DNA from: a virus
Direction: 5' to 3' (one strand)
Virus record (IMG/VR): IMGVR_UViG_3300010430_000501
Span: 1 to 22,167 of that record
DNA length: 22,167 nucleotides
Below are positions 1,725-20,592 of this stretch, one piece after another; the stretch's first letter is position 1, and the number at the start of each line of letters is the position of its first letter. Both the position numbers and the translations under genes were made by a program. Below the pieces are notes generated by a model. The model made no database searches and had not been told where the DNA came from. It saw only the letters and a list, made by a program, of their open reading frames with translations.

Positions 1725-2261
1725 GTGAATACAAAGCGAGAAAATCTATCCGGCCAACAGCTACAAGCATTGGAATTACTAGCTAACGGCGAAATGAATA
1801 AAGACGTTGCCGCCGAAATTGGCGTGACTCCTCAAACGATTTCTAACTGGAAACGTAAGGATGATCTCTTCATTGCAGAGCTAGAAGCTACGTTGAGGCG
1901 TAAATTGGACAAAGCTGTCCCTAAAGCTATCAAAACTATGATCGAGCTCATGGATAGTAACCATCCTCAGATCAGGTTTGCGGCGGCCAAGGATATATTA
2001 GATAGGCGCGGTATAAAAGCACCAGAACGAGTAGAACACACAGGAGCCGGTGGCAATCCTATTATGGTCGCTGACGTGACGAGTATTATGTCTGAAGCTG
2101 AGAAAGCTCAGTTAATAATGAACGCGGCGAGAGCTATCGAGGATCCTGAGTATGAAATAGTAGAAGACGAACCGAAAGTTCCAGATCTGGCGGAAATGAT
2201 CGAGGATCCTGAGCAAGATACTGGGGATCTGAAAGCCGATGATCTGGATTTTTTAGACTAA
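1725..2261 (+). CDS. terS: Terminase small subunit (TerS)
   Basis: This 178-residue protein has a helix-turn-helix at about residues 8-45 (LSGQQLQALELLANGEMNKD, then VAAEIGVTPQTISNWKR), a central oligomerisation-like helical part with HPQIRFAAAKDILDRRG at about 80-95, and a very acidic C-terminal tail from about 140 on. This is the layout of phBC6A51-type small terminases, which bind the packaging site and load DNA onto TerL. The terL gene follows after 248 bases. The GTG start has only a weak SD (GGGG, about 11 bases upstream), so translation is probably low. It is preceded by a leader terminator and followed by a long inverted repeat. Confidence 0.85.
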   Translation: MNTKRENLSGQQLQALELLANGEMNKDVAAEIGVTPQTISNWKRKDDLFIAELEATLRRKLDKAVPKAIKTMIELMDSNHPQIRFAAAKDILDRRGIKAPERVEHTGAGGNPIMVADVTSIMSEAEKAQLIMNAARAIEDPEYEIVEDEPKVPDLAEMIEDPEQDTGDLKADDLDFLD

Positions 2262-2509: not shown

Positions 2510-4054
2510 ATGTTAACTCATGCTGCAGTAGTGGCAGCTCTGGAAGATGAGCGCAAAAGATGTGAAAATGATTTCTATTTGATCAATACATACGGATGGT
2601 TCAAAGATCCCAATGCGCCTGATGGATCAGGTAAGTCAAAGTTTGTACTCTGGCCGAAGCAAAAGGATCTATACACGTCGTGGGACAACAACCGATTAAA
2701 CATAACACTTAAAGCACGTCAGCTGGGTATATCTTGGCTGGCTTTATTTTATGCCTTCTGTAATCTACGTAGGACGAAAGGCTATGACGTGTCAGCGATC
2801 TCACAGTCTGACCGTGAAGCAATGGGCCTTGTCGACCGGCTAGAGTTCATTTTGGAGAACATGCCGTCGTGGATCATCATTGAAAAGAAGAAGGCGCCCA
2901 AGGGGTACAACGGGCATACATATGAAAAGACAGCACATGAAGTGACTATTTATCATCCAGATTCGGATGTAACCAGTATATTCAGGGCGCTACCGACCAG
3001 TCAGAACGCCGGCCGTTCCTTTACCTCCTCCCTTGTGATAATGGATGAGTGGGCGTTCCAGCAATGGGCTGGGGAAGTATTTACGGCGGCATTCCCTACC
3101 ATCAACAACCCTTCGGGTGGCCGAGTCCTTGGGATCTCGACTGCTCAGAGGGGTACTTTTTTCGAAGAGCTCTGGGCGGATCCTTTACAATTCGGATTTA
3201 GCGCAGTGTTTCTCCCCTGGTGGACGGATCCACGGCGTAACGAAGCTTGGATGGCCGCCACGAAGAAAGCACTTAGAAAGAACAACAAGTACATGCAAGA
3301 GTACCCAGCCACGCCGGAAGAGGCCTTCAGTGCTGGTGAAATGACAGCATTCCCAGAGTTCAGCTACGGGATCCACGTATGTCCATCCTTTAAGATACCG
3401 GATCATTGGACAAGATGGATGTCATGCGACAACGGATTCACGGATCCTTTCGCTTGGTATTGGTTCGCAGTATCCGAAGATGGAGTGATTCATGTCTACA
3501 GGGAGTACTCACGCGAACGTGACGACGATAGGATCTATTACACGGACCAAGGTAAGGAAGTAAACGAACGCAGTCAACGCACAGACGCCAATGGAGATGT
3601 ATCACTCGAAGATATAGAGGTAATTGTAACTGGACTCGATGCATGGAACACTAACCACCGTGACCAAACAGGTAAACGCCTGATCGATTACTATATCGAA
3701 GGTGGCATTGAGTACGGATTCGCCAAAGCTGTTACCGATCGACGTTTAAGGAAAGCAACCGTGGCTGAATACCTGAAGCACATCGATGATGGCCAAGGTG
3801 GATTTACGGCCAAGGTACAAATACACGACACGTGCACACACCTGATAGCTACCCTTCCTAAGTTACTCAATGACGAGAAGGATGCAGAGAAGGTTGCAGA
3901 CAGCAAGATAGATAACCAATATGACTCATTCGGGTACGGCTTGATCTACCACCATGCGGAAAGATCTGAGACACCTGAAGAAGAGCTCAGTGAAGTACAA
4001 CGACGGAAGTCACGTAAGATCAAAGCCAACAAGCGACGTAAAAGGTTGCGATAA
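2510..4054 (+). CDS. terL: Terminase large subunit (TerL)
   Basis: This 514-residue protein is the packaging motor: an N-terminal ATPase and a C-terminal RNase H-fold nuclease that cuts the concatemer. Visible motifs are a phage-type Walker A KARQLGIS (68-75), Walker B LVIMDE (175-180) and coupling motif GISTA (208-212). The nuclease acidic residues are D307 (MSCDNGF), D377 (VTGLDAW) and D468/D472 ([10 protein letters not shown]). The last 20 residues are strongly basic. Length is typical. The start has a modest SD (AAGTGGTG) and lies after a terminator hairpin. The GATC tetranucleotide is unusually frequent in this gene. Neighbours are terS upstream and a probable immune-evasion gene 16 bases downstream. 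Confidence 0.95.
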
Positions 4055-4070
4055 CCGGGAGGAGAGGCAC

Positions 4071-4418
4071 ATGAAACTTAACACCATTCAGAAGAGAGAA
4101 AACTTAAACGCAGTATTCGCAACAGACCACAAAGGTAAGGGTGGTGCACATTATAGGTACGAGATCGAGACAGGTGATGTGAAGACTAGGTTACTATTTC
4201 AGAACGGACCACGTAAAGAGGTTGGATCTATCTCAGGTGTGCTCGATGTAGACTTGTTGGAGATCTGCAGACACAGGCTGCAATGTTTCCAAGATGGACC
4301 CTATGCATCACGTGAGAACGCAGTCGCACTTACTAAGATTGAAGAAGCCCTCATGTGGCTCAACAGACGTGTAGAAGACAGAATCGAACGTAACGTACTC
4401 GGCAAAGATGCGAAATAG
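4071..4418 (+). CDS. Acb2/Tad1 hairpin-family protein, probable cyclic-nucleotide sponge (anti-CBASS/anti-Thoeris)
   Basis: Start 4071 is chosen over an in-frame upstream ATG inside terL because GGGAGGAGAGG lies just before it. The 115-residue protein shows a pattern I associate with Acb2/Tad1-type hairpin phage proteins: a small beta part with [12 protein letters not shown] (41-52), then two helices, [13 protein letters not shown] (62-74) and [20 protein letters not shown] (81-100), joined by DGPY. Characterised members bind and sequester the cyclic nucleotide signals of CBASS or Thoeris systems without degrading them. The usual Gly-rich end of such homologues is here NVLGKDAK. It sits between terL and a structural gene, a common place for accessory genes. 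The family call is from recalled motif pattern; sponge activity and ligand are inferred. Homologues are often labelled only hypothetical. Confidence 0.65.
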
Positions 4419-4597: not shown

Positions 4598-7003
4598 ATG
4601 AAGTTTCCAACGAACAGAATAAGTCCCGCAGCACTGCGGCGAACAGAACCACTAGACACCCATAAGAACGACGGATTACAAGCCCTCATAGTCGAAGGCA
4701 ACGATCGCAACGGTGGCAGCAGTAGACCAGCGGTACCAGGCGTCGAGATTATCGCAGACGAAAGTACACGGGTAGAAACGCCGATCACGGACAGGATGCT
4801 AAACAACAACTTTAGGATGAGGGCAAAGGCAAGAGTCGGAACCCAATACCACAGGGGTATTTGTGGAGTAGTTAATGGCGGTGACGATAGGTTATATTTA
4901 GCAACAGAGCAGTCATATGTATCGTATGGGATAGGTAAAAGCTCTTTTATGCACATGCTTAGTCTTGCAATGGGGGATACGATTGAGGTTGAGGCTATTT
5001 ATTCAAACAATCTACTAAGCTGTTGGTTTAATGGCGAAAAAGTTGCCACCGATCGCGCATCTATTAGAAATATAGGTGACGGATCATTGCAATTGGTCAC
5101 ATCAGGTAGTGATTCAGCAAGGTATACGGGCGCACTGTTAGAGTTTGAGGTTGAACTCTATGAAACAGGCGTGACCTACACCCTCAACACAATACCGTTA
5201 AACGGCGGAGTGTATGAGTTAATCCCTAATGACGGATCGGAGCCTTTGTTGTGTCAACAATATGTTGCACCTTCCGCGCCTACTCAACTTAATACGGAAG
5301 TCGTAAGTATGCAAGATAAGTATGGATACACTGAAGCTGGCGGAAACAAACTCCCTTGGGCTTACGGTAGTAATAGTTTGAGTGATTTATGGGCGTTAGG
5401 GTACGTTCACGATTCAAGCAATGTTGAAACTATGGTAGATGGGACATACACCGCCACAGCTACCAAGCAGTACGGCAGAATATACGTTTACGATATGAAT
5501 GTTATTAAAGGACATACATATTACTTTTCTCTAATTGCAAGTAGATTGTCGGACAAGGTGTCATTCACCGTTCGACACAATACAGTACCTTGGTCAACTT
5601 TCGTAAGTTGCGATGTACCAATAACAGGGGTACCAACAAAGGTCGCTGATATAGGAGTTATCACAGAGGACGGGGTGGTGGGATTTAACGCTCAAGACTC
5701 GAATGCTTCGGGATGGCAACCCTTCACTATGAAAGATCCTCTTGTCTTAGATCTGACAGTCATAAATGAAGTAAGACCTGACCTGGATGTTTTGAACATG
5801 AGTGTAGAAACGATCATGTTATTAGAGGATGTGTTGGTTAAGATCCAACAGTTACATTTTGACAAGAAGGGCGTTAAGCAAGTTCCGACAAACTATCTAT
5901 CGCCCAATTCTTTAGATGGTGTTACTAACACAGCTTATGCTGGGGATGTTGAGTTCCTAACAACACCTCAGATTATAGTTGCAGACAAAAACACTTACAT
6001 TGAGCTTGAAAGGTGGAACCTTGGGTCTGAACATATCATTGAGTTTGAGTCAAAGTATGTAGGTGGCAATGTAATCTTAGGTGACTCTGAAAGTGGGAGA
6101 TCTGCAATAATCTATGGTGGGGATTTATTGAGATATAGAAATGATGTAGACAACTCTAATGATGTAAGCATAGAGGACTATCACAAGTGGTGTGAGTATA
6201 GAGTCGAAGTTGAGAAAACCAACATTAAGATATATAAGGACGATTCTTTAATAATGGATCAGACTAAAGAAGAGAATGACTTCTATCTAGGTAGGATTTT
6301 CTCGTATGAATCAGATAGCTACAGATATGAGGGAGCTCTTAGGGGGTTGAGGATCACTAAAGATAATGTGGTCTACACCTTAAATACAATTCCAGACTCA
6401 AACGGAGTATACACATTTATTCCTAACGATCCGACAGTAGAGCCGATATTGTGTCAACAGTATTTAGCACCAGTGAGCCCAACGGTTGATGATTGGGACG
6501 CAGATGAAATGTTGAATAAGAATGGTTATTCGGTTAGTAGGGCGTTAGGGAAGAACAAGGGCTACACCTACGACTCAAAAGGCACATTGCCAGTTCCACA
6601 TGGCACTCTCATTCCCAACTATCCCGACGGTGTGACATCGACGGCTTATGTCGACGGCGCGCATCCTGAAGGGCAGTACCAAGGCAGTCAGTATCTCACT
6701 CACCCGGTCGGGCAGTGCCGAGGCCGTGTGAAGTATGACATTGAGGTTGTAGGTGGAAATTGGGAGGCCGGCAGTTCGCTTAAACTAGCGGATACCTACC
6801 ATGAGATCGCTAAAGCAGATACACAGCGTATATGGACTGAGCTAGATGGGTCGCCAAAAGAGGTACCGATCGCGACTTTAGCAGAAACGACCAACAATCA
6901 GTTATTCGTTAATAAAACGCGGCAAACGGTAAGTTGGTATGACGCACCTCTCACAGGAGAGGCCTTAAAGAGAGCTAAACTATTGCAAGGATTGGAGGGT
7001 TAA
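4598..7003 (+). CDS. Large modular LamG-like (concanavalin-fold) repeat protein, possible virion decoration or adhesin
   Basis: This 801-residue protein has duplicated modules. Module 1 (about 60-235) and module 2 (about 428-635) both end with YTLNTIP...GVY..IPND....LCQQY.AP (from residues 194 and 593). Both contain an ELE/EFE strand-rich core with a WFNGEKVA or IYKDDSLI strand, as in LamG/concanavalin-like lectin folds. The module start PN..DGVT.TAY occurs near 435 and again at 672, so a third, shortened copy forms the C-terminus. No signal peptide or membrane segment is visible, consistent with assembly into the virion. Codon and base use in the middle (about 4840-6560) is more AT-rich than the ends, suggesting swapped-in modules. 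Its place between terL and portal is unusual for a fibre-like protein; a head fibre or capsid decoration is my inference. Carbohydrate binding is possible but unproven. Confidence 0.7.
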   Translation: MKFPTNRISPAALRRTEPLDTHKNDGLQALIVEGNDRNGGSSRPAVPGVEIIADESTRVETPITDRMLNNNFRMRAKARVGTQYHRGICGVVNGGDDRLYLATEQSYVSYGIGKSSFMHMLSLAMGDTIEVEAIYSNNLLSCWFNGEKVATDRASIRNIGDGSLQLVTSGSDSARYTGALLEFEVELYETGVTYTLNTIPLNGGVYELIPNDGSEPLLCQQYVAPSAPTQLNTEVVSMQDKYGYTEAGGNKLPWAYGSNSLSDLWALGYVHDSSNVETMVDGTYTATATKQYGRIYVYDMNVIKGHTYYFSLIASRLSDKVSFTVRHNTVPWSTFVSCDVPITGVPTKVADIGVITEDGVVGFNAQDSNASGWQPFTMKDPLVLDLTVINEVRPDLDVLNMSVETIMLLEDVLVKIQQLHFDKKGVKQVPTNYLSPNSLDGVTNTAYAGDVEFLTTPQIIVADKNTYIELERWNLGSEHIIEFESKYVGGNVILGDSESGRSAIIYGGDLLRYRNDVDNSNDVSIEDYHKWCEYRVEVEKTNIKIYKDDSLIMDQTKEENDFYLGRIFSYESDSYRYEGALRGLRITKDNVVYTLNTIPDSNGVYTFIPNDPTVEPILCQQYLAPVSPTVDDWDADEMLNKNGYSVSRALGKNKGYTYDSKGTLPVPHGTLIPNYPDGVTSTAYVDGAHPEGQYQGSQYLTHPVGQCRGRVKYDIEVVGGNWEAGSSLKLADTYHEIAKADTQRIWTELDGSPKEVPIATLAETTNNQLFVNKTRQTVSWYDAPLTGEALKRAKLLQGLEG

Positions 7004-8095: not shown

Positions 8096-10135
8096 GTGTT
8101 TGAAGTTCTAAAAGACGCCGGTAAGAACATTGCTGAAAGTATGGGGATTAAATTACATAAGGAAAAAGAAGATCCTGCGACGCCTTGGAAGAATAAAGCC
8201 GGCCAACCCATCTACGTAAGTAGCATGTTGGCGTATGTGAAAGACGAGTTTGACAAACGTAGTCAAGAGCGTATGATGTTAGAGCTTCAGTGGCGGTTAA
8301 ACATTAACTTCGCAGACGGCAATCAGTTTGTGGAAATCAACTCTCAAACCAACCGGATCGAAGAGACGCAGCGCTTGTTCTGGTATCAGGAAATGGAGGC
8401 AATGAACCAGATCGCCCCTATTCTCGAGACACGGCAAGCCAAACTAAAGCGTTTAAATTTGATATTAAAAGCCCGACCGGCCAGTGGTGATCGAGAAGAC
8501 ATTGCAAGCGCCAGGTTATCGAATAAACTCTTTGCCTCCATCCGATCTGAACGCCGGATGCAGAAGCTTGAAGCCCAAGCGGACATATGGATGGAAGTGT
8601 GCGGAACGGCTTTCTGGAAGAACGGCTGGGAAAAGGATATGGGCCAAGTGCTCGGTTACCTCGAGGAAAACGGTAAAAAAGAAACCGTTCGCGAGGGGGA
8701 CTACGACCCTGAAGTTATATCACCTTTTGAAATGTTTCCGGATTCTATCTGGAACAGTGATCCTTCAGAGTGTAAGAGTTTAATACGCCGCCGGGTCATG
8801 CACATTAACGACATTGAAAGCAAACACGGGAAACGTCTTGAAGGTAAAGAGGTATCCGTCTTTAATATCCAAGGATCCTCGTACATGTCGGGTGGTGCCT
8901 CTGTTAAATCAGGCACAGGTATGTTTGGTGTTCGTAAGAAAAAAGATCATTTAGAAGTATTTGAATACATGGAAATGCCCTCAGATCTCTACCCTGAAGG
9001 GCGTTATTTTATATGTACTGAAGAAGAGGCTCTGGAAATGGGCGGGTTGCCTTACAAAGTGGGCGACGATGGCCAGCCGGCGATCCATTACACCTCTCAA
9101 AAGTGTTTAGAAGTAGAAGGCCGTTTCTTTGGTAAGTCTGTTGTTGAAAGGTTGATCCCGGTACAGCGTCGTTACAATGCGATCAAGAACCGGAAAGCTG
9201 AGTATTTGAACAGAGCAACCATAGGGAACTTAGTTGCAGAACGTGGCAGCTTGAACACGGACGTGATCGAGGAGCACGGAATTGAGCCGGGCATGATAAT
9301 TGAGATAAAGCCTGGTACTCAAATGAATCCCTATTTCCTGCAGTACCCGTCGTTACCGCACACCTTTGAGACTGAAGAACAGTCTTACGATAGGTTGTTT
9401 GTAACCATATCGGGTGTGTCTGAAATATCTCGAGATTCCAACGCGCCGGTAGGTGTTAACTCGGGGATCGCGTTACAGATCTTACAGGAACAAGATGATA
9501 CCAGGTTATCCCTTACGGGTGATAACAAGAAACAAGCTCACATTGATAACGGTCGGATGCAAGTCCGGTTGTATAGACAGTTTGCAGAGACACCGAGACT
9601 TCTGAAGACGTCGGGCCAAGATGAAGCGCCGGACGTAATGGATTGGGTTGGATCGGATCTCACAACGGATGACATCTTTATTGAAGGTGCAACCATGCTT
9701 GCTGAAACATTGGCTCAACGCCGTCAGATGGTCTTTGACCTCATGGATAAGGGAGCCTTTAACGATCCTGAAACGGGTAACATCGGCCGTGCGGGACGAG
9801 CTAAACTGTTTGAAATGCTTGAAATGGGTAATTGGGAAGACTTCGATGGTGACGATAATTCGAACGCTCACCTTAAACGTGCAAACCGCGAGATTCAACA
9901 TATGATCTCAGAAATGCCAGTGACGGTTGCGGAGTACGACGACGATATCCTACACATTTCACGACATAACAACTTCCGTCTAAGTGCGGAGTTCGAGGAG
10001 CTGAAGCATAGCAAGCCAGAAGTGGCGGCCATGATCGACGCCCACATTGAGCAACACATTCAAGCCTTGCAGCTGAAGACAATGCAAAGTCAACCACAAG
10101 AACCGGCTGCAGAAGAGAAAGGAGTACCAATGTAA
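8096..10135 (+). CDS. Portal protein, P22-like
   Basis: This 679-residue protein is the dodecameric portal through which DNA enters and leaves the head. The start is the GTG at 8096, with GTGGAGGTG about 6 bases upstream; a nearby ATG at 8091 is out of frame. Typical P22-like features are the long N-terminal helical part, the crown/wing region with FEMFPDSIWNSDPSECKSLI at about 210-230, the stem/clip stretch RRYNAIKNRKAEYLNRAT (about 358-375), and ISGVSEISRDSNAPVGVNSG (about 441-460). A C-terminal helical tail with Gln/Glu/Ala runs ends the protein. It is followed by scaffold and coat genes in the canonical order, with TAATG coupling to the scaffold. GATC sites are dense: about 20 in 2 kb by eye. 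Confidence 0.9.
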   Translation: MFEVLKDAGKNIAESMGIKLHKEKEDPATPWKNKAGQPIYVSSMLAYVKDEFDKRSQERMMLELQWRLNINFADGNQFVEINSQTNRIEETQRLFWYQEMEAMNQIAPILETRQAKLKRLNLILKARPASGDREDIASARLSNKLFASIRSERRMQKLEAQADIWMEVCGTAFWKNGWEKDMGQVLGYLEENGKKETVREGDYDPEVISPFEMFPDSIWNSDPSECKSLIRRRVMHINDIESKHGKRLEGKEVSVFNIQGSSYMSGGASVKSGTGMFGVRKKKDHLEVFEYMEMPSDLYPEGRYFICTEEEALEMGGLPYKVGDDGQPAIHYTSQKCLEVEGRFFGKSVVERLIPVQRRYNAIKNRKAEYLNRATIGNLVAERGSLNTDVIEEHGIEPGMIIEIKPGTQMNPYFLQYPSLPHTFETEEQSYDRLFVTISGVSEISRDSNAPVGVNSGIALQILQEQDDTRLSLTGDNKKQAHIDNGRMQVRLYRQFAETPRLLKTSGQDEAPDVMDWVGSDLTTDDIFIEGATMLAETLAQRRQMVFDLMDKGAFNDPETGNIGRAGRAKLFEMLEMGNWEDFDGDDNSNAHLKRANREIQHMISEMPVTVAEYDDDILHISRHNNFRLSAEFEELKHSKPEVAAMIDAHIEQHIQALQLKTMQSQPQEPAAEEKGVPM

Positions 10136-11088: not shown

Positions 11089-12288
11089 ATGTCAATGATT
11101 ACTATGGCAGCTATACAAGATGCTTTAAAGAATTATTATATCGACGCTATTCGTCACCAGATGAACTACGGATCAACGGCGTTAGCAGCACAGCTTGAAA
11201 AGACTTCTAAAAACATTGTAGGTGATAAGATTACTCGTTACTTGCGTTACGGCCGTAATGGCGGTGTAGGTAATCGCGCCGACGATGGTACCATGCCAAC
11301 ACCAGGTTCTCGTAAAGGGTTCCAGATCACGACGGGCACAAAGAACATGTTCGGTTCGCTTCAGATCACTTCAAAGTCGATCAAAGCTTCAAAAGGGAAC
11401 AAAGCTTCGTTTATCAACCAGCTTACGACAAATTTAGAGGAGCTTTTGACAGATGCGAAGGACAACTTCGGTCGTCAACTTTACGGCGACGGTGAAGGTA
11501 TCTTAGCACTTGCGACAGCCGCGGGATCTTCGGGAGCTGTGGTTAAAGTTGCAGATGCAGACTCCCTTCGTTATTTATATGAAGGTATGCGCGTAGATGT
11601 GCTGGACGCAGCGACGAAAGTCACGAAACGAGCAGACGCACTAGAAGTGGCTTCCATCGATAAGGACGCAGGAACGATTACACTTGAAAGCGCCGTGGGT
11701 TCTGCAGTAACAGACAACGACGTTATCTGTGTACAAGGTTCATATGGCTTAGAATTAACAGGCATGGAAGCGATCTTTAACAAATCGACGATCTACGGTG
11801 TAGATCGATCGGCTATGAACTGGATGAAGCCTAACATCATCAACGTTGGTGCAAGCGCAGGTTCGACAGCTGAACTCGACGAGCTTAAGATCCAAGAAGG
11901 TTTGGATGAGATCGAGATTGCAACAGGCGAGTCTGCTAACTTTATGATCGGTTCGTACGGCGTGCGTAGAGCTTACCAGTACTTGTTCCTTTCTAGCAAG
12001 CGTACAGTGAACACGTTGAAGCTCGAGGGTGGTTTTACAGCGCTTGACTACAACGGTACGCCGTTTACAGCTGACCGTTACTACAAGAAAGGCACGTTGG
12101 ACTTGATCAACACCAAGTCATTAACACTTGATCGTTTAGACGACTGGGGTTGGGCAGACGAAGACGGCAACATGTTACACCGTATGACGTCGAAAGCTGC
12201 TTATGAGGCTGTCTTAGAATGTTACGGCGACCTTATGTGCGACCTTATGAAGTCGAACACGCGTCTTCAGTTTATTACACAGCACTAA
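11089..12288 (+). CDS. Major capsid protein, HK97 fold
   Basis: This 399-residue protein is preceded by an excellent SD (AGAGGAGG, 11072-11079) and uses codons such as CGT, GGT and AAC that suggest strong expression. Recognisable coat features are the N-terminal helix with YGSTALAAQLEKTSKNIVGD, the loop GFQITTGTKNMFGSLQITSK, and a spine helix with NLEELLTDAKDNFGRQLYGD. A beta-barrel-like insertion (about 150-220) carries a VDVLDAATK...ITLESAVGS pattern, and an FMIGSYGVRRAYQYLFLSSK segment follows. This is the coat type often annotated simply as phage major capsid protein next to P22-like portals. There is no N-terminal delta domain of HK97 type; scaffolding is provided by the separate upstream gene. 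An intrinsic terminator follows closely. Confidence 0.9.
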   Translation: MSMITMAAIQDALKNYYIDAIRHQMNYGSTALAAQLEKTSKNIVGDKITRYLRYGRNGGVGNRADDGTMPTPGSRKGFQITTGTKNMFGSLQITSKSIKASKGNKASFINQLTTNLEELLTDAKDNFGRQLYGDGEGILALATAAGSSGAVVKVADADSLRYLYEGMRVDVLDAATKVTKRADALEVASIDKDAGTITLESAVGSAVTDNDVICVQGSYGLELTGMEAIFNKSTIYGVDRSAMNWMKPNIINVGASAGSTAELDELKIQEGLDEIEIATGESANFMIGSYGVRRAYQYLFLSSKRTVNTLKLEGGFTALDYNGTPFTADRYYKKGTLDLINTKSLTLDRLDDWGWADEDGNMLHRMTSKAAYEAVLECYGDLMCDLMKSNTRLQFITQH

Positions 12289-13330: not shown

Positions 13331-15352
13331 ATGATACAAAAATTATATGACAAAGTAACAGGATACAACGACACCGCGTCACCCAGCGAGTTGAAAGACA
13401 CAGAGTGTCGGATCCTTTTAAACATGGACTTGGACGAAAGTGGCGGCGCGATTACGAGATCGGGTTTTGACAAGATCAACAATACAATCTTTGGCCATGA
13501 AGTAGAACAAGAGATTGAGTGGCTGGTGAATGGCGTTTCTCGGAAACTGGTTGTGATGAATAGTAAAGTGTTCCTCATGGACAACGACGGTGCCTTAACA
13601 GAAAAGTTGGCAATTGACGACGCCCATATCGATACTATCACAATACAAAACATACTCTACATCATGGATGGATCTGAGATCTATGAGTGGGGGAAAAGTA
13701 ATTATGACGCCAGTGAAACATCGATCGATATAAAGGTTAGTGAGGTGATCTTTAATCTACCTGCGTCAAGCGGCGGCGGTGTAGAAGGTAATTTCTACAA
13801 GGCTAAAGCAGCACATGGAACAACGAACCTTTCTACTGAAAATTTTAGTAACACAACAAAATGGGAAGACGTGACGGATATCAAAGGTGTGATATCTAGC
13901 GTGATACGGCCTGTAACACCAAAAAATGGAGGCTCTAAAGAAAAGGTTAAACTGGTTATTAATTATATGGCCAACACAGCAGGTGACGCTACAATCACCC
14001 TGAATGGCGTCGATAAAAAAGTAACTTTAGCTGCAGACGATACCGCGACGGCCATAGCAGGGAAGATCCGAAGTGCATCATACACTGGGTGGACAACGAG
14101 CGGAGCTGGTAACGAGGTATATTTTGAGGCTACTACTGAAGGGGCAAAGACGGGCGCTTTTTACGATCCTGGTAAAACCGGTGCTTATGGAGCCGTATCC
14201 ATTGAACAGGAGGGCTCTTCCGACGACAACAGCATTGATGATGTGAAGAAGTGTACAAAGTTTGAGCAACACGAGTATTCGAAAAGGATTTTTGCTGTCG
14301 GAAATCCTGATAATCCAACGGCGGTGTACTACTCAGAATTTAACCGTCTCGATTATTGGCGTTCAGACAGTGAACTTTATCCAACAACGCCTGAAGCTGA
14401 AGCCATAGCGCTACTGCCTTTAGATAACGTTATGCTGGTGGGCTTTAACAATAGCTGGTGGTATTGGGCTGGTATTGAAGTTGGCGTGGATGCGCTCTGG
14501 CGAAGGCTACCGATTCCCTATGGACCTATATCCCATAAGTCTGTTGTGCTGACACCTTTTTCATTTACCTTTACTTCTGCGACAGGGGTGTACACCATCC
14601 AATCCAGTATATTGAGTCAAGAAGCTTTGATGATTCAGTCTGATCGGATGATCGTACCCTTGAGTAAGAATAAGGTGGATAAAACCATCAAAGGAATTGT
14701 TAAACCCTATCTGGCCAAGGCGATCTATCACGATAACAAGTACATGTTGGCTTATTGCGACGACCCCCTGTTAACCAGAAACAATAAGGTCTTGGTCTTT
14801 CACGATACAACCAACGGGTTTACCAAGTGGGACGGGCTGCAGGTTAACGGATGGAATAAGACGTCGGATAACGAATTGCGTATAGCCACTAAAAACTTTG
14901 TTCTTCAGAGTAAAGCAGGAAAGATCTCAGACATAAACACGGATACGGGAGCTGATAAAGCGATCCAATCCCATATTAAAACAAAGGATTTAGATTTAGG
15001 CGATCCCTTGGGATCAAAGTACGTATTATTCGTATACCTTTTAATGAAACAATTCGAACTGATGGAAACTCAAGCAACACTCAGTATTGTTGCAGATTAT
15101 AAAGCGCGGTTATTTACAGACGTTCCTTTAGACGAGTCTTTTATATGGGGACGTTCTTGGGGCCGAGTTTGGGGATACCGTGAGTTGATGGAGCTTGAAG
15201 CCGAGCTGAAAGAAAAAGCTTCACGGTTCTCTATAGAGATCAAAGATGAAACTTTAGGGAATCAAATTGGTTTTTACGGTGTAGGTTTTAGTTTTTTAAA
15301 GTTAAGACCTGAAGCTACTTCAATAGATGATGGAAGGGGGTTGATCAAGTAA
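13331..15352 (+). CDS. Tail hub/stabilisation protein, P22 gp10-like, with inserted domain
   Basis: This 673-residue protein starts at an ATG with GTAGGTGATT upstream. The core resembles beta-propeller hub or nozzle proteins of short-tailed phages (P22 gp10 type): RIFAVGNPDNPTAVYYSEFN (about 318-337), LDYWRSDSELYPT, an IALLPLDNVMLVGFNNSWWY blade, SHKSVVLTPFSFTFTSATGV and MLAYCDDPLLTRNNKVLVF. The final propeller blade is followed by KTKDLDLGDPLGSKYVLFVY and a WGRSWGRVWG motif. Residues about 145-300 look inserted: a carbohydrate-binding-like part (YKAKAAHGTTNLSTENFSN, TTKWEDVTD) followed by an Ig-like module with TITLNGVDKKVTLAADDTA and TSGAGNEVYFEATTEGAKTG. It probably closes the portal channel after packaging and receives the fibres encoded next. 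Confidence 0.8.
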   Translation: MIQKLYDKVTGYNDTASPSELKDTECRILLNMDLDESGGAITRSGFDKINNTIFGHEVEQEIEWLVNGVSRKLVVMNSKVFLMDNDGALTEKLAIDDAHIDTITIQNILYIMDGSEIYEWGKSNYDASETSIDIKVSEVIFNLPASSGGGVEGNFYKAKAAHGTTNLSTENFSNTTKWEDVTDIKGVISSVIRPVTPKNGGSKEKVKLVINYMANTAGDATITLNGVDKKVTLAADDTATAIAGKIRSASYTGWTTSGAGNEVYFEATTEGAKTGAFYDPGKTGAYGAVSIEQEGSSDDNSIDDVKKCTKFEQHEYSKRIFAVGNPDNPTAVYYSEFNRLDYWRSDSELYPTTPEAEAIALLPLDNVMLVGFNNSWWYWAGIEVGVDALWRRLPIPYGPISHKSVVLTPFSFTFTSATGVYTIQSSILSQEALMIQSDRMIVPLSKNKVDKTIKGIVKPYLAKAIYHDNKYMLAYCDDPLLTRNNKVLVFHDTTNGFTKWDGLQVNGWNKTSDNELRIATKNFVLQSKAGKISDINTDTGADKAIQSHIKTKDLDLGDPLGSKYVLFVYLLMKQFELMETQATLSIVADYKARLFTDVPLDESFIWGRSWGRVWGYRELMELEAELKEKASRFSIEIKDETLGNQIGFYGVGFSFLKLRPEATSIDDGRGLIK

Positions 15353-18300
15353 TGAAATACCAAAGACAGTTTACCTCAGATGAAGGTCAAAAATCAACGG
15401 GCCTTGGTGGACCAGATCAACTAGAAAAAGAATTTGATAAAATTGGTGTGTTTTTGGATCCAGACGCAACACATGAAGATGGATCTCAGGGCGGGATCGG
15501 TCCTGAAAACTTACAACCAGGGGCGACCACTGACGCAAATATCGGAGATCGAACCGTCAATCAAAATATAACGACAACTGTAGGAAACACAGGGAGCCTT
15601 ACTTTTTTACTGTCCTGGATTGTGAAGATGATAAAAACGGTAACGGGCCGTACCAATTGGTATGACAGCCCGACTCGAAACATGGAACAGCTGGATACAG
15701 ACCTTGCAACTCTCGAAGCTCCTGGGGCGATTAACGACGTGTTGATAGGCGACCGGACAATTAATCAGATGGCTCAACCGCCTCAACCGGGATCGTGGGA
15801 TACGAGCGGCGTAGGGACGTTGTTATCGTATATTGCAAATACGCTGCAAAGAATCACAGGCATGTCCCATTGGTCTGGAACGCCACCCCGAAATTTGTTT
15901 AATTTGAACGCTGATGTGGTTAACCATAAGGGGGATATTAATAATCCCCACGGTGTTGATCGTTCACAACTGGATGTGTATTCTACTACTGAAGTAAATG
16001 GAATCAAAGAGAATTTAGCGGGTCCAGGTCGCGTTTCAGAGACGATCAAAGGCAACAATGATGCCGTGACAGCTGCCCAGCAGCAGTTGGATACACATGG
16101 AGCATCTACAGGGAACCCTCATGTTGTTACAGCAGAGCAGGTGGGGGCCTACAGTAAAACGGAGATGCAGACAGCTGGACAGGCGACCTTACACTGGAAC
16201 AATTTATCGAACGTTCCTAACCTGGCCGACTCTTCTTGGAAACCTGCAGTAAGTACCTACGATCTACTCCCAGTTTCAAGCAACGTCGTAGACGATATGC
16301 GTATTGTTGCAGATGATGGCGACGGTAAAACGGCCATGTATCGATGTAAAGCGACTGCAGGGGTCCGATTAGATCAGTGGGAAAAACTAGCCGATTTAGA
16401 TTGGACCAATGATCACGGGGCCTTGGTTGGATTGAATGACGACGATCACCCTCAGTACGCACGTACCGACGGAACGCGTAAGTACACAGGTCCGATCGAC
16501 TTAGATGGGTTCGCGATTCTTAATGCGGTCTTTAACCCTTCAGATACAGAGCCGGCCACACCCAAGGTAGGTATGCTCTGGTACGATACAGGCAACCAGC
16601 AACTTAAAGTCTACAAGGGTGCAGCTGCAGGTTGGACCGATATCTCAGGCCAAGGTGCGATTGCAAGGCGTGTTGAGATTACAGCAAGTCCAGGACAGAC
16701 AGTCTTTGCTATTGATGAAGGTGGACAGTTTAAGTATGAAGTAGGGACTTGTACCATGGGCGTCTACTTGAAAAACTCAGAGGGGATGTACGAACGCCTT
16801 GACGAAGACAGTTACACAGAATCGAGCTCCCTGACGGTAACGCTTAACAGTGGAGCCCTCTTAAATGATCAGTATATGTTCGAGTGGTTTGAAAACACAC
16901 CGGCCATTATTAATTTAGCGGTTCAAAAAGACGGTACGCTTCAAGCTAATTTGAATGCGGACTTACTGGATGGACAGCATGGATCCTACTATCTGAATGC
17001 GGATAATCACACTGAAGGAGTCATCAACAGATTGTTTACAGCGCTTCTCAGAGATAAACTGAACAACATTGAAGCCGGCGCAACCGCTGATCAAACAGCT
17101 GATGAAATACTGGCTTTAATAAAATCAGTTACCTCGGGCAGTCTGCAATTGAATGACAACGTACAACTGCAATTTGGCTCTGCTTCGGGTGGCGATTTTG
17201 TTATCTATCACGATGGAACAAACCAGATTATCAAAAGTTATAAACATGGCTCACCACTTTATATACAAGGTGAAGATGTAAGTGGTAGTCTTAAGAATTT
17301 AATCCTTGCAGACCCAGATTCAAGTGTAAGATTGTATTATGCGGGAACTGAAAAATTTGCAACTACAGCAGATGGGGTAAAAGTGATAGGTCAGTTAGAA
17401 ACTGATCAAGTAAGGGTTTTAGATGATGCAGGATACGCAAGAGGTCTTTTTCATTATGATGATGCTCAAGAAATGATGATCTTACGAAGTCTCAAACATG
17501 GTGCGGTCGTAGCAATTCAAGGGGAAAATTATGCGACAGGTACAAATAAAAACATATTGATTGCCGATCCAGATGGCGCTACTACCATATATCATGCAGG
17601 AACATCAAAACTAGCGACAACAGCATCGGGCATTAATGTAACGGGAGCGTGTTTGGAAAATAATTTAAGGTTGGCAAATATGCAGACAGTAGGTACTGCA
17701 AGTGATGACCCTAATGCTACATTAAACGGTTTAATACTGACAAATCATGCCAATAGTCCTAACGCTATAGCTGGTAACGGTGGTTATTGGTATGTTGAAA
17801 CAAGATTTTATAATAATGTAAGTGCAGGAGCAAATAGAACGCAGTATGCCACATGTTATGGTTCTTCACCGACAATGAATGGAAAAATGTATATAAGAAG
17901 TTATTATTCATCTTATGGGTGGTCAGATTGGAAGGAAGTAGGTGGTGGAACAATGTTAGTAAAAGCAAGTGATACATTACAACATACAATAAGGAGTGCG
18001 GAGTATTCGAGTCCATTGAATCAAAACATACCAGCTATGGTTGGGATATTAATTCCAAAGTTTTCAGGATCAATTAGAGTTAAAGCAGATCTAGGTTGTG
18101 AAGTAGGGACTTCTGCATATTGTCGATTAGGTATTTTAGCAACAGATATGGGTGGAGGTGGTAGTTCACGTCCTACACAGCCCCACGCATTAGGTAATTA
18201 CGGTACTGATGTTTATATAGGTAAGCCCATAGGAACGTCTTTAGCAAATGCAACAGTATATATGAGTACAATAGCATATTTAAGTGGAAGTACTTATACT

Positions 18301-18438
18301 TCTATAAATTCTGATGTAATGGTTAAAGCAGGAGAGCCACTAATTTTTGGTATCTGGAATCCAAATAATTCTCTAAATCCTAAAATTAAAAATTTAACTG
18401 TTTCCTATACTGAAGTTACTAGTACAGAAGTGCTGTAA
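15352..18438 (+). CDS. Tail fibre / receptor-binding protein (modular, pyocin-knob-like)
   Basis: The 1028-residue protein is coupled to the hub stop (TAATG). It opens with two related modules (about 64-125 and 132-195) each with IGDRT.NQ, a hydrophobic helix and a W-x-x-P-x-R-N end. The middle has fibre repeats with NPHGV or NPHVVTAEQVGAYSKTE, LVGLNDDDHPQY (about 362-373), LLDGQHGSYYLNADNHTEG and DKLNNIEAGATADQTADE (about 569-586). Two tandem beta repeats follow (about 605-690, 705-775) sharing KHG...IQGE, ILADPD and Y.AGT.K.ATTA.G. A pyocin-knob-like part ends YIRSYYSSYGWSDWKEV (about 845-861), then a Ser/Gly/Tyr-rich C-terminal beta module. From about 17150 on the DNA is clearly more AT-rich, as expected of an exchanged receptor-binding end. 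It should recognise the host surface. Confidence 0.85.
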   Translation: MKYQRQFTSDEGQKSTGLGGPDQLEKEFDKIGVFLDPDATHEDGSQGGIGPENLQPGATTDANIGDRTVNQNITTTVGNTGSLTFLLSWIVKMIKTVTGRTNWYDSPTRNMEQLDTDLATLEAPGAINDVLIGDRTINQMAQPPQPGSWDTSGVGTLLSYIANTLQRITGMSHWSGTPPRNLFNLNADVVNHKGDINNPHGVDRSQLDVYSTTEVNGIKENLAGPGRVSETIKGNNDAVTAAQQQLDTHGASTGNPHVVTAEQVGAYSKTEMQTAGQATLHWNNLSNVPNLADSSWKPAVSTYDLLPVSSNVVDDMRIVADDGDGKTAMYRCKATAGVRLDQWEKLADLDWTNDHGALVGLNDDDHPQYARTDGTRKYTGPIDLDGFAILNAVFNPSDTEPATPKVGMLWYDTGNQQLKVYKGAAAGWTDISGQGAIARRVEITASPGQTVFAIDEGGQFKYEVGTCTMGVYLKNSEGMYERLDEDSYTESSSLTVTLNSGALLNDQYMFEWFENTPAIINLAVQKDGTLQANLNADLLDGQHGSYYLNADNHTEGVINRLFTALLRDKLNNIEAGATADQTADEILALIKSVTSGSLQLNDNVQLQFGSASGGDFVIYHDGTNQIIKSYKHGSPLYIQGEDVSGSLKNLILADPDSSVRLYYAGTEKFATTADGVKVIGQLETDQVRVLDDAGYARGLFHYDDAQEMMILRSLKHGAVVAIQGENYATGTNKNILIADPDGATTIYHAGTSKLATTASGINVTGACLENNLRLANMQTVGTASDDPNATLNGLILTNHANSPNAIAGNGGYWYVETRFYNNVSAGANRTQYATCYGSSPTMNGKMYIRSYYSSYGWSDWKEVGGGTMLVKASDTLQHTIRSAEYSSPLNQNIPAMVGILIPKFSGSIRVKADLGCEVGTSAYCRLGILATDMGGGGSSRPTQPHALGNYGTDVYIGKPIGTSLANATVYMSTIAYLSGSTYTSINSDVMVKAGEPLIFGIWNPNNSLNPKIKNLTVSYTEVTSTEVL

Positions 18439-19040: not shown

Positions 19041-19483
19041 AAACACATTACCTAGTAAGCTATACAGGTGGCGGCTTCTTTGGGTGGGTGGTCAAATTGA
19101 AATCAGGACCTTATTCTCATTCAGCCTTATTGAAACCGGATAAAACCCATGTGGTTGATGTCAACTGGTATCACCGGTTAAAGATACGTCACCTTGCAGC
19201 ACGAAAAGGAAGTTATGAATTAACACCCTTGCAGCTTGACGTTGAAAAGGTAGAAAGTTTTATAAAAAAATACTTAGATACACCTTATGACAAAAAAGGC
19301 GTAATTTCTTTTATAGTGCCATGGATCAAACACGATCCACGGTTTTTTTATTGCTCAGAATTTATGAGAGATCTTATTTACGGTGCGGGCGATTACCCAG
19401 AATTAGAAGCTATTTTAAATGAACCAACGGCACCAACTAAACTGAAAAACACAGTAGAACAAGACGTAAAGGAGGTTACTTAA
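19031..19483 (+). CDS. Permuted NlpC/P60-like hydrolase (YiiX/YebB-type)
   Basis: This 150-residue protein overlaps the previous gene by 10 bases. It shows the permuted papain-like arrangement: a His in SGPYSHSALL (H30) comes first and the Cys in FFYCSEFMRD (C108) later, with a conserved TPYDKKG turn at 84-90. In ordinary NlpC/P60 enzymes the Cys precedes the His. Family members are thiol hydrolases acting on peptidoglycan peptides or lipid/amide bonds. No signal peptide is present. The gene is coupled to the following protease gene by TAATG. A role in wall opening at entry or lysis is inferred; an acyltransferase-like activity is also possible for this superfamily. Confidence 0.75.
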   Translation: MGVKTHYLVSYTGGGFFGWVVKLKSGPYSHSALLKPDKTHVVDVNWYHRLKIRHLAARKGSYELTPLQLDVEKVESFIKKYLDTPYDKKGVISFIVPWIKHDPRFFYCSEFMRDLIYGAGDYPELEAILNEPTAPTKLKNTVEQDVKEVT

Positions 19484-20592
19484 TGAACTTTGAAGAGACG
19501 CTTAAGATCCCTGGCTATTGGGATCTTTTTGAACACACAGGTCGACAAGCTTTCTATCACCAAGGGATCTACGGCCAAAATACGACGGTCATTGTTATGG
19601 ATTCAGGGTGTAATGACCATGTTGAATTTGAAGACCGTGTTATCTGCAGATACAACGCAGTGGACGGGTCTGAAGAAGTATACGATCACAACGGCCACGG
19701 TACGGCCATGGCTGGCGTTATTGCCGGGAAACATGGCATGATGCCCCTGGCTAAGATCGTCATTGTTAAGATAGCTGACGAGAACGGTAATATCTATTTA
19801 CACCACATTGAGGCCGCTTTGGAATGGGCTGCAGCGTACAGAGATCCAGAAACAGGAGAGCCGGCGGACATTATTTCTATTTCGGCCAGTGCGGCTTCAG
19901 GCAGCAAACGATTAAGAGAAGGGGTTCAGGATTGTGAAGATCTGGACATCCTTATTTTTTCGTCTGCAGGTAACAACGGAAATGGACAAACCAGGTACCC
20001 GGCCAATGATCCAAGAGTGGTCGCGACGTGTGCGGTGGACTCCTATCTTGAGTTAGAAGACTATTCAAGCTACAACCAACGTATGATGTTCTGTATGCAC
20101 GGAACGCAAATAATGACAGCTGATCACAAAACAAGAGACGGTTATAAAACATCGACCGGAACTTCGCCGGCGACACCCATGAACGCGGGTACGGCCGGTT
20201 TAATGCGAAGCAAGTACAAGTTTGTACATAATCGTAGAATGACCAATAAGGAAACGCGCGACTTCATGGCCCTGAGTGCCATTGATTTAGGAGCAGTGGG
20301 CTACGATAACAAGTATGGTTTCGGATTCCCTACACTGGATCCTTCGGCACCCCGTGAGTGGACCGTGGTGGTTCCGATCGGCAGCTGCTACATTTACGAT
20401 GGCGGCATTGCAACGAAGATAGACCAACCGGCGGAGATCGACCCGGATACCAACCGAACCATGGTGCCCCTAAGAGCTTTAGCAGAAGCCTTGGATAAAG
20501 AGGTAACCTGGAATGCAGAAAGTCGCACGGCAGGTTTTAGACCACCCAAGTGCACACCGGCTACCGCTAAACCACTGGACGTACGGAGGTAA
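19483..20592 (+). CDS. Subtilisin-family (S8) serine protease with C-terminal Cu-amine-oxidase-N-like domain
   Basis: This 369-residue protein carries an intact catalytic triad: D40 in VIVMDSG, H72 in HNGHGTAMAGVIAG, and S228 in TGTSPATPMNAG. The oxyanion-hole Asn N164 is in SSAGNNGNG. There is no signal peptide or long propeptide, as in intracellular subtilisins, so it is either active in the cell or carried in the virion. Residues about 292-352 (VVVPIGSCYIYDGGIATKID, TMVPLRALAEALDKEVTW, NAESRTAGF) match the Cu_amine_oxidN1 pattern, a small domain found on secreted surface proteins of Bacillota. SD GGAGG lies at 19471-19475. Its location between a wall-hydrolase gene and membrane/wall genes suggests degradation of surface or S-layer protein at infection. 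Subtilases are rare among phage structural genes. Confidence 0.9.
   Translation: MNFEETLKIPGYWDLFEHTGRQAFYHQGIYGQNTTVIVMDSGCNDHVEFEDRVICRYNAVDGSEEVYDHNGHGTAMAGVIAGKHGMMPLAKIVIVKIADENGNIYLHHIEAALEWAAAYRDPETGEPADIISISASAASGSKRLREGVQDCEDLDILIFSSAGNNGNGQTRYPANDPRVVATCAVDSYLELEDYSSYNQRMMFCMHGTQIMTADHKTRDGYKTSTGTSPATPMNAGTAGLMRSKYKFVHNRRMTNKETRDFMALSAIDLGAVGYDNKYGFGFPTLDPSAPREWTVVVPIGSCYIYDGGIATKIDQPAEIDPDTNRTMVPLRALAEALDKEVTWNAESRTAGFRPPKCTPATAKPLDVRR

Follow-up and report, generated by a model that had tools for sequence, protein, structure and literature searches.

A 22,167-base stretch of viral DNA, which is the entire virus record and is referred to here as the window, encodes a full-length Tad1 of the CbTad1 type, a further member of a known family. 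The 115-residue product of this gene, tad1, is highly likely to act as a signal sponge, as judged from its homology to CbTad1, and we put the probability of the full explanation, with hexamer, ligands, late expression and counter-defence included, at about 0.93.

Identity and predicted fold of the tad1 product

The tad1 gene (4071..4418, + strand) begins with an ATG at 4071 and ends with a TAG at 4416-4418. Direct reading of the sequence also located a GGAGG-type ribosome-binding site, GGGAGGAGAGG, at about 4057..4067 on the same strand. A longer version of the gene starting at 3954 was discarded, as it overlaps terL and both the relatives and the ribosome-binding site favour position 4071. 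The motifs FQDGPY.SRENA.ALTK.EEA.MWL and LLFQNGP.KEVG, which a sequence-only reading had reported for this open reading frame, are indeed present in it. Scanning for promoters and terminators detected no + strand site adjoining tad1, and the number of sites found was not above that in shuffled sequences.

The same reading had assigned the protein to the Acb2/Tad1 family, and this assignment held in both HMM and structural comparisons and could be narrowed to full-length Tad1. Pfam family PF24729 (Acb2_Tad1_hairpin) matched the product with an E-value of 3.5e-8 and 33.9 bits, above the curated gathering cut-off of 27, and the unnamed PHROG 2428 matched it at 1.6e-29. A phmmer search against solved structures aligned CbTad1 (7uav, 7uaw, 8smd, 8kbe-8kbh) with residues 2-115 of the window protein (E 1e-34), with 69 of the 115 aligned residues identical (60%); CmTad1 (1e-15) and gp184 (6e-5) were also recovered.

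The single-chain AlphaFold model, for which 35 relatives were used along with the window protein, reached a pLDDT of 86 and a pTM of 0.71. It consists of an N-terminal β-sheet half (4110..4202, + strand; strands at residues 14-17, 29-34, and 37-43) followed by a C-terminal two-helix hairpin (4245..4388, + strand; helices 59-75 and 81-106), which Pfam and the alignment also delimit and which contains F73, N83, R100, and R104. An antiparallel β-sheet followed by two long helices is the architecture of Tad1. Acb2 shares with the window protein the PF24729 two-helix hairpin and the sponge principle, but it is an all-helical protein of about 94 residues without the β-sheet half (PMC12043709), a form that the strands of the model do not fit. 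Because the N-terminal β half is present, we consider the window protein a Tad1 rather than an Acb2, and the latter identity was discarded. When the model was compared with known structures by Foldseek, it matched CbTad1 at TM 0.90 (8smd among the entries), both in complex with gcADPR (E 2.4e-13) and with 1′,3′-cADPR and cA3, CmTad1 being the next real match (TM 0.85). Beyond the Tad1 entries, Foldseek returned nothing at an E-value of 0.1 or better, and no Acb2 structure was significant.

Among the known Tad1 proteins, that of a Clostridium botulinum prophage, CbTad1, resembles the window protein from end to end, including the C-terminal tail and the putative ligand residues. CmTad1 (8kbb, 8kbc, 8kbd) shares the fold and the hairpin signature at about 36% identity, with an N-terminal half that is divergent in sequence, and the founding member, Tad1 of SBSphiJ7, is 43% identical over residues 20-115. 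The C-terminus of the window protein (NVLGKDAK) had earlier been described as divergent, with the consequence that ligand choice was in doubt. This description proved wrong, as RNVLGKDAK aligns with RNVLGTNTK of CbTad1 and RNVLG..K is the CbTad1 tail; since the tail is canonical, the doubt about ligand choice that was derived from it falls.

Putative ligand-site residues and selection

We take F82 and N92 of CbTad1 to be contacts for gcADPR, and R109 and R113 presumably contact cyclic trinucleotides; the numbering of all four fits the CbTad1 sequence. In the alignment, these four positions correspond to F73, N83, R100, and R104 of the window protein, which are kept in 93, 92, 93, and 94, respectively, of 94 distinct full-length relatives. 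R48 is likewise kept, and the window protein retains nearly all positions conserved at 95% or more in this set; conservation of the C-terminal R107 and G111 is at least 97% among the relatives. The window protein departs from the family at K89, where 91 of the 94 relatives have H, and at two further nearly conserved positions (C66 for V and Y28 for H), and its β-hairpin is 8 residues shorter than that of CbTad1. Because of these three changes and the shorter hairpin, the affinity or ligand preference of the window protein may differ from that of CbTad1.

Codon comparison with the nearest relatives gave a clear pattern that points to purifying selection on tad1. With respect to the 70%-identical relative at locus L081, 50 of the 82 positions with an identical residue use a different codon, and the differences at codon positions 1, 2, and 3 number 34, 19, and 72, respectively.

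Genomic placement of tad1 and its relatives

All major genes of the window lie on the + strand, in the order ArpU/sigma-like regulator, terS, terL, tad1, unmatched genes, portal, capsid, fibre-like gene, and subtilase, as assigned with Pfam and PHROGs. The terminase small subunit (terS, 1725..2261; phrog_2538, 8e-25) and large subunit (terL, 2510..4054; phrog_2, 1.8e-25) precede tad1, and terL ends 16 bases before it. Downstream are a P22-like portal (8096..10135; PF16510, 2.6e-14), the major capsid protein (11089..12288; phrog_14242, 7.6e-68) and a large fibre-like protein (15352-18438). Close to where the record ends, a further gene (19483-20592) encodes a protease of the subtilase family that is joined to a copper amine oxidase N-terminal-like domain. 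The position between terL and the head genes is thus as the sequence-only reading had given it. Because tad1 is packed between terL and the portal and capsid genes, it is probably expressed from the late structural transcript, as far as gene order indicates.

Between tad1 and the portal gene lies an 801-residue protein (4598-7003) with no Pfam or PHROG match. It has two apparently related halves, as the motifs YTLNTIP..GVY..IPND and CQQY are found twice, and is possibly a decoration or adhesin protein. Near relatives of the terL, portal, and capsid of the window are almost absent from the phage and viral-contig collections searched, and the capsids nearest to its own, at about 25% identity, belong to actinobacterial phages. 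When viral contigs were searched with the capsid and portal genes no relatives were found, and the search with terL gave one weak relative. Locus L011/L119 alone has a portal (36%) and a capsid related to those of the window; its tad1 is placed just ahead of terL.

The placement of tad1 was surveyed in 128 full-length Tad1 loci of at least 45% identity, taken from viral contigs and bacterial genomes and collapsed at 95% identity to 81 non-redundant loci, in which terL, portal, MuF, and capsid genes were labelled by transitive BLAST from PHROG-identified seeds. A terL, portal, MuF or major-capsid gene was located within 3.5 kb of tad1 in at least 45 of the 81 loci, and in all 45 these head genes were on the same strand as tad1. 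The value of 45 is a lower bound, because head genes that have no relationship to the seeds escape the labelling. Head genes flanked tad1 on both sides within 6 kb in 26/81 loci, and after collapse at 80% identity a head gene was nearby in 31 of 59. The capsid genes at these loci form six groups without detectable similarity to each other at an E-value of 1e-8. Of the 33 contigs with a length of 34 kb or more, 21 were positive, against about 10 expected if tad1 fell at random into a 14-kb zone (P 4e-5). The null behind this value is rough, since some of the loci depend on one another and the width of 14 kb was estimated by us.

The commonest slot had the order portal, MuF, tad1, scaffold, capsid, and was occupied on the same strand alongside unrelated capsid families (L014:4995-5360, L018, L032, L004, L107, and L134, among others). 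In other loci, tad1 was beside terL (the window, L092, and L119) or directly after the capsid gene (L054 and L016). In the five cultured phages inspected, Tad1 is encoded outside such slots, for the most part in regions of DNA metabolism or without annotation, and the SBSphiJ7 gene, unlike that of the window, occupies another region of a large Herelleviridae phage genome and is not beside terL. Locus L074:3893-4246 is orf71 of Lactococcus phage 1706, a Tad1 homologue annotated as 'structural protein'. By profile search, 511 Tad1-encoding stretches are present in IMG/VR. Our literature search, which covered few subscription papers, found no earlier report of head-module placement of Tad1.

Proposed function and the capsid trigger

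Tad1 sequesters signals without degrading them and assembles as a hexamer of three dimers, in which the dimer pockets hold gcADPR or cyclic dinucleotides and two trimer interfaces hold cyclic trinucleotides (PMC12043709). CbTad1 also triggers the Panoptes system, probably via sequestered 2′,3′-c-di-AMP (PMC12657218). As the window protein is 60% identical to the experimentally characterised CbTad1 and retains all of the putative ligand residues, a sponge function like that of CbTad1 accounts for it best. By homology to CbTad1, it would form a stoichiometric sponge as a trimer of dimers. Pockets at its dimer interfaces would accommodate gcADPR and certain cyclic dinucleotides, and cyclic trinucleotides would be taken up at two further sites, distinct from these pockets and lying on the trimer axis. 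In an infected cell, Thoeris and CBASS signals would thereby be kept below the level that activates the effectors, and the sponge would probably be made from the late structural transcript, along with the capsid protein, the molecule recognised by some Thoeris sensors.

A bias towards CBASS, with selection acting on the trinucleotide sites at the trimer axis and with binding of gcADPR weak or lost, seems unlikely to us. This idea agrees with the essentially invariant R100 and R104, with the substitution of K89 for an almost invariant H, and with the rarity of ThsB_TIR, detected in 2 of the 19 genomes that hold Tad1 relatives; the presumed gcADPR contacts F73 and N83 are however retained as well, and SMODS was detected in 0 of the 19, so the survey gives CBASS no support either. 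A search of the host genomes for STALD matched no control. The bacterial genomes with close Tad1 relatives are, by their descriptions, mostly of Clostridia from gut or anaerobic sources.

It is very improbable that a Tad1-fold protein came to serve in the virion or in head assembly and for this reason lies in the head module. The recurrent adjacency to MuF, scaffold, and capsid genes and the 'structural protein' annotation carried by the homologues of Lactococcus phage 1706 and Bacillus phage P59 would fit such a role, but conservation of the ligand-site residues as in CbTad1 is better accounted for by ligand binding, Tad1 homologues occur outside head modules, and many head modules function without Tad1. 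We give hardly any credence to a decayed Tad1 that has lost ligand binding: despite the shortened β-hairpin and the three changes at nearly conserved positions, the frame is intact, the purifying pattern strong, the pocket conserved, and the fold confidently predicted.

In staphylococcal and streptococcal Thoeris, the activator is the major head protein of the phage, and the structural region of phage PhiNM1 comprises the portal gp39, the minor head protein gp40, the scaffold gp42, the capsid gp43, and gp41, a small ORF with no assigned function (PMC12578639); judged by its number, gp41 lies between gp40 and gp42. Because the capsid protein triggers some Thoeris systems, co-transcription of sponge and trigger is a testable hypothesis: if both were read from one late operon, production of the sponge would coincide with that of the signal. 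That CbTad1-type sponges recur in the head operon for the sake of co-production with the capsid trigger, and that this coupling arose independently in several capsid lineages unrelated to one another, we propose tentatively, as a conjecture that falls somewhat short of probable. The distance between tad1 and the capsid gene is typically 0.5-1.2 kb among the relatives. Two points qualify the hypothesis: in the window this distance is 6.7 kb, and a tolerant insertion site would be a simple alternative account of the head-operon position.

The window adds one Tad1, and it does so from a divergent phage: in the collections searched, the terminase, portal, and capsid of this phage are matched by few close relatives or by none. 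The placement pattern carries greater weight than this additional Tad1 itself. Should a link between sponge and capsid genes hold, gene order would offer a clue to which phage protein triggers a nucleotide-signalling defence, and the unnamed small genes in the slot between MuF and scaffold would become candidates for counter-defence.
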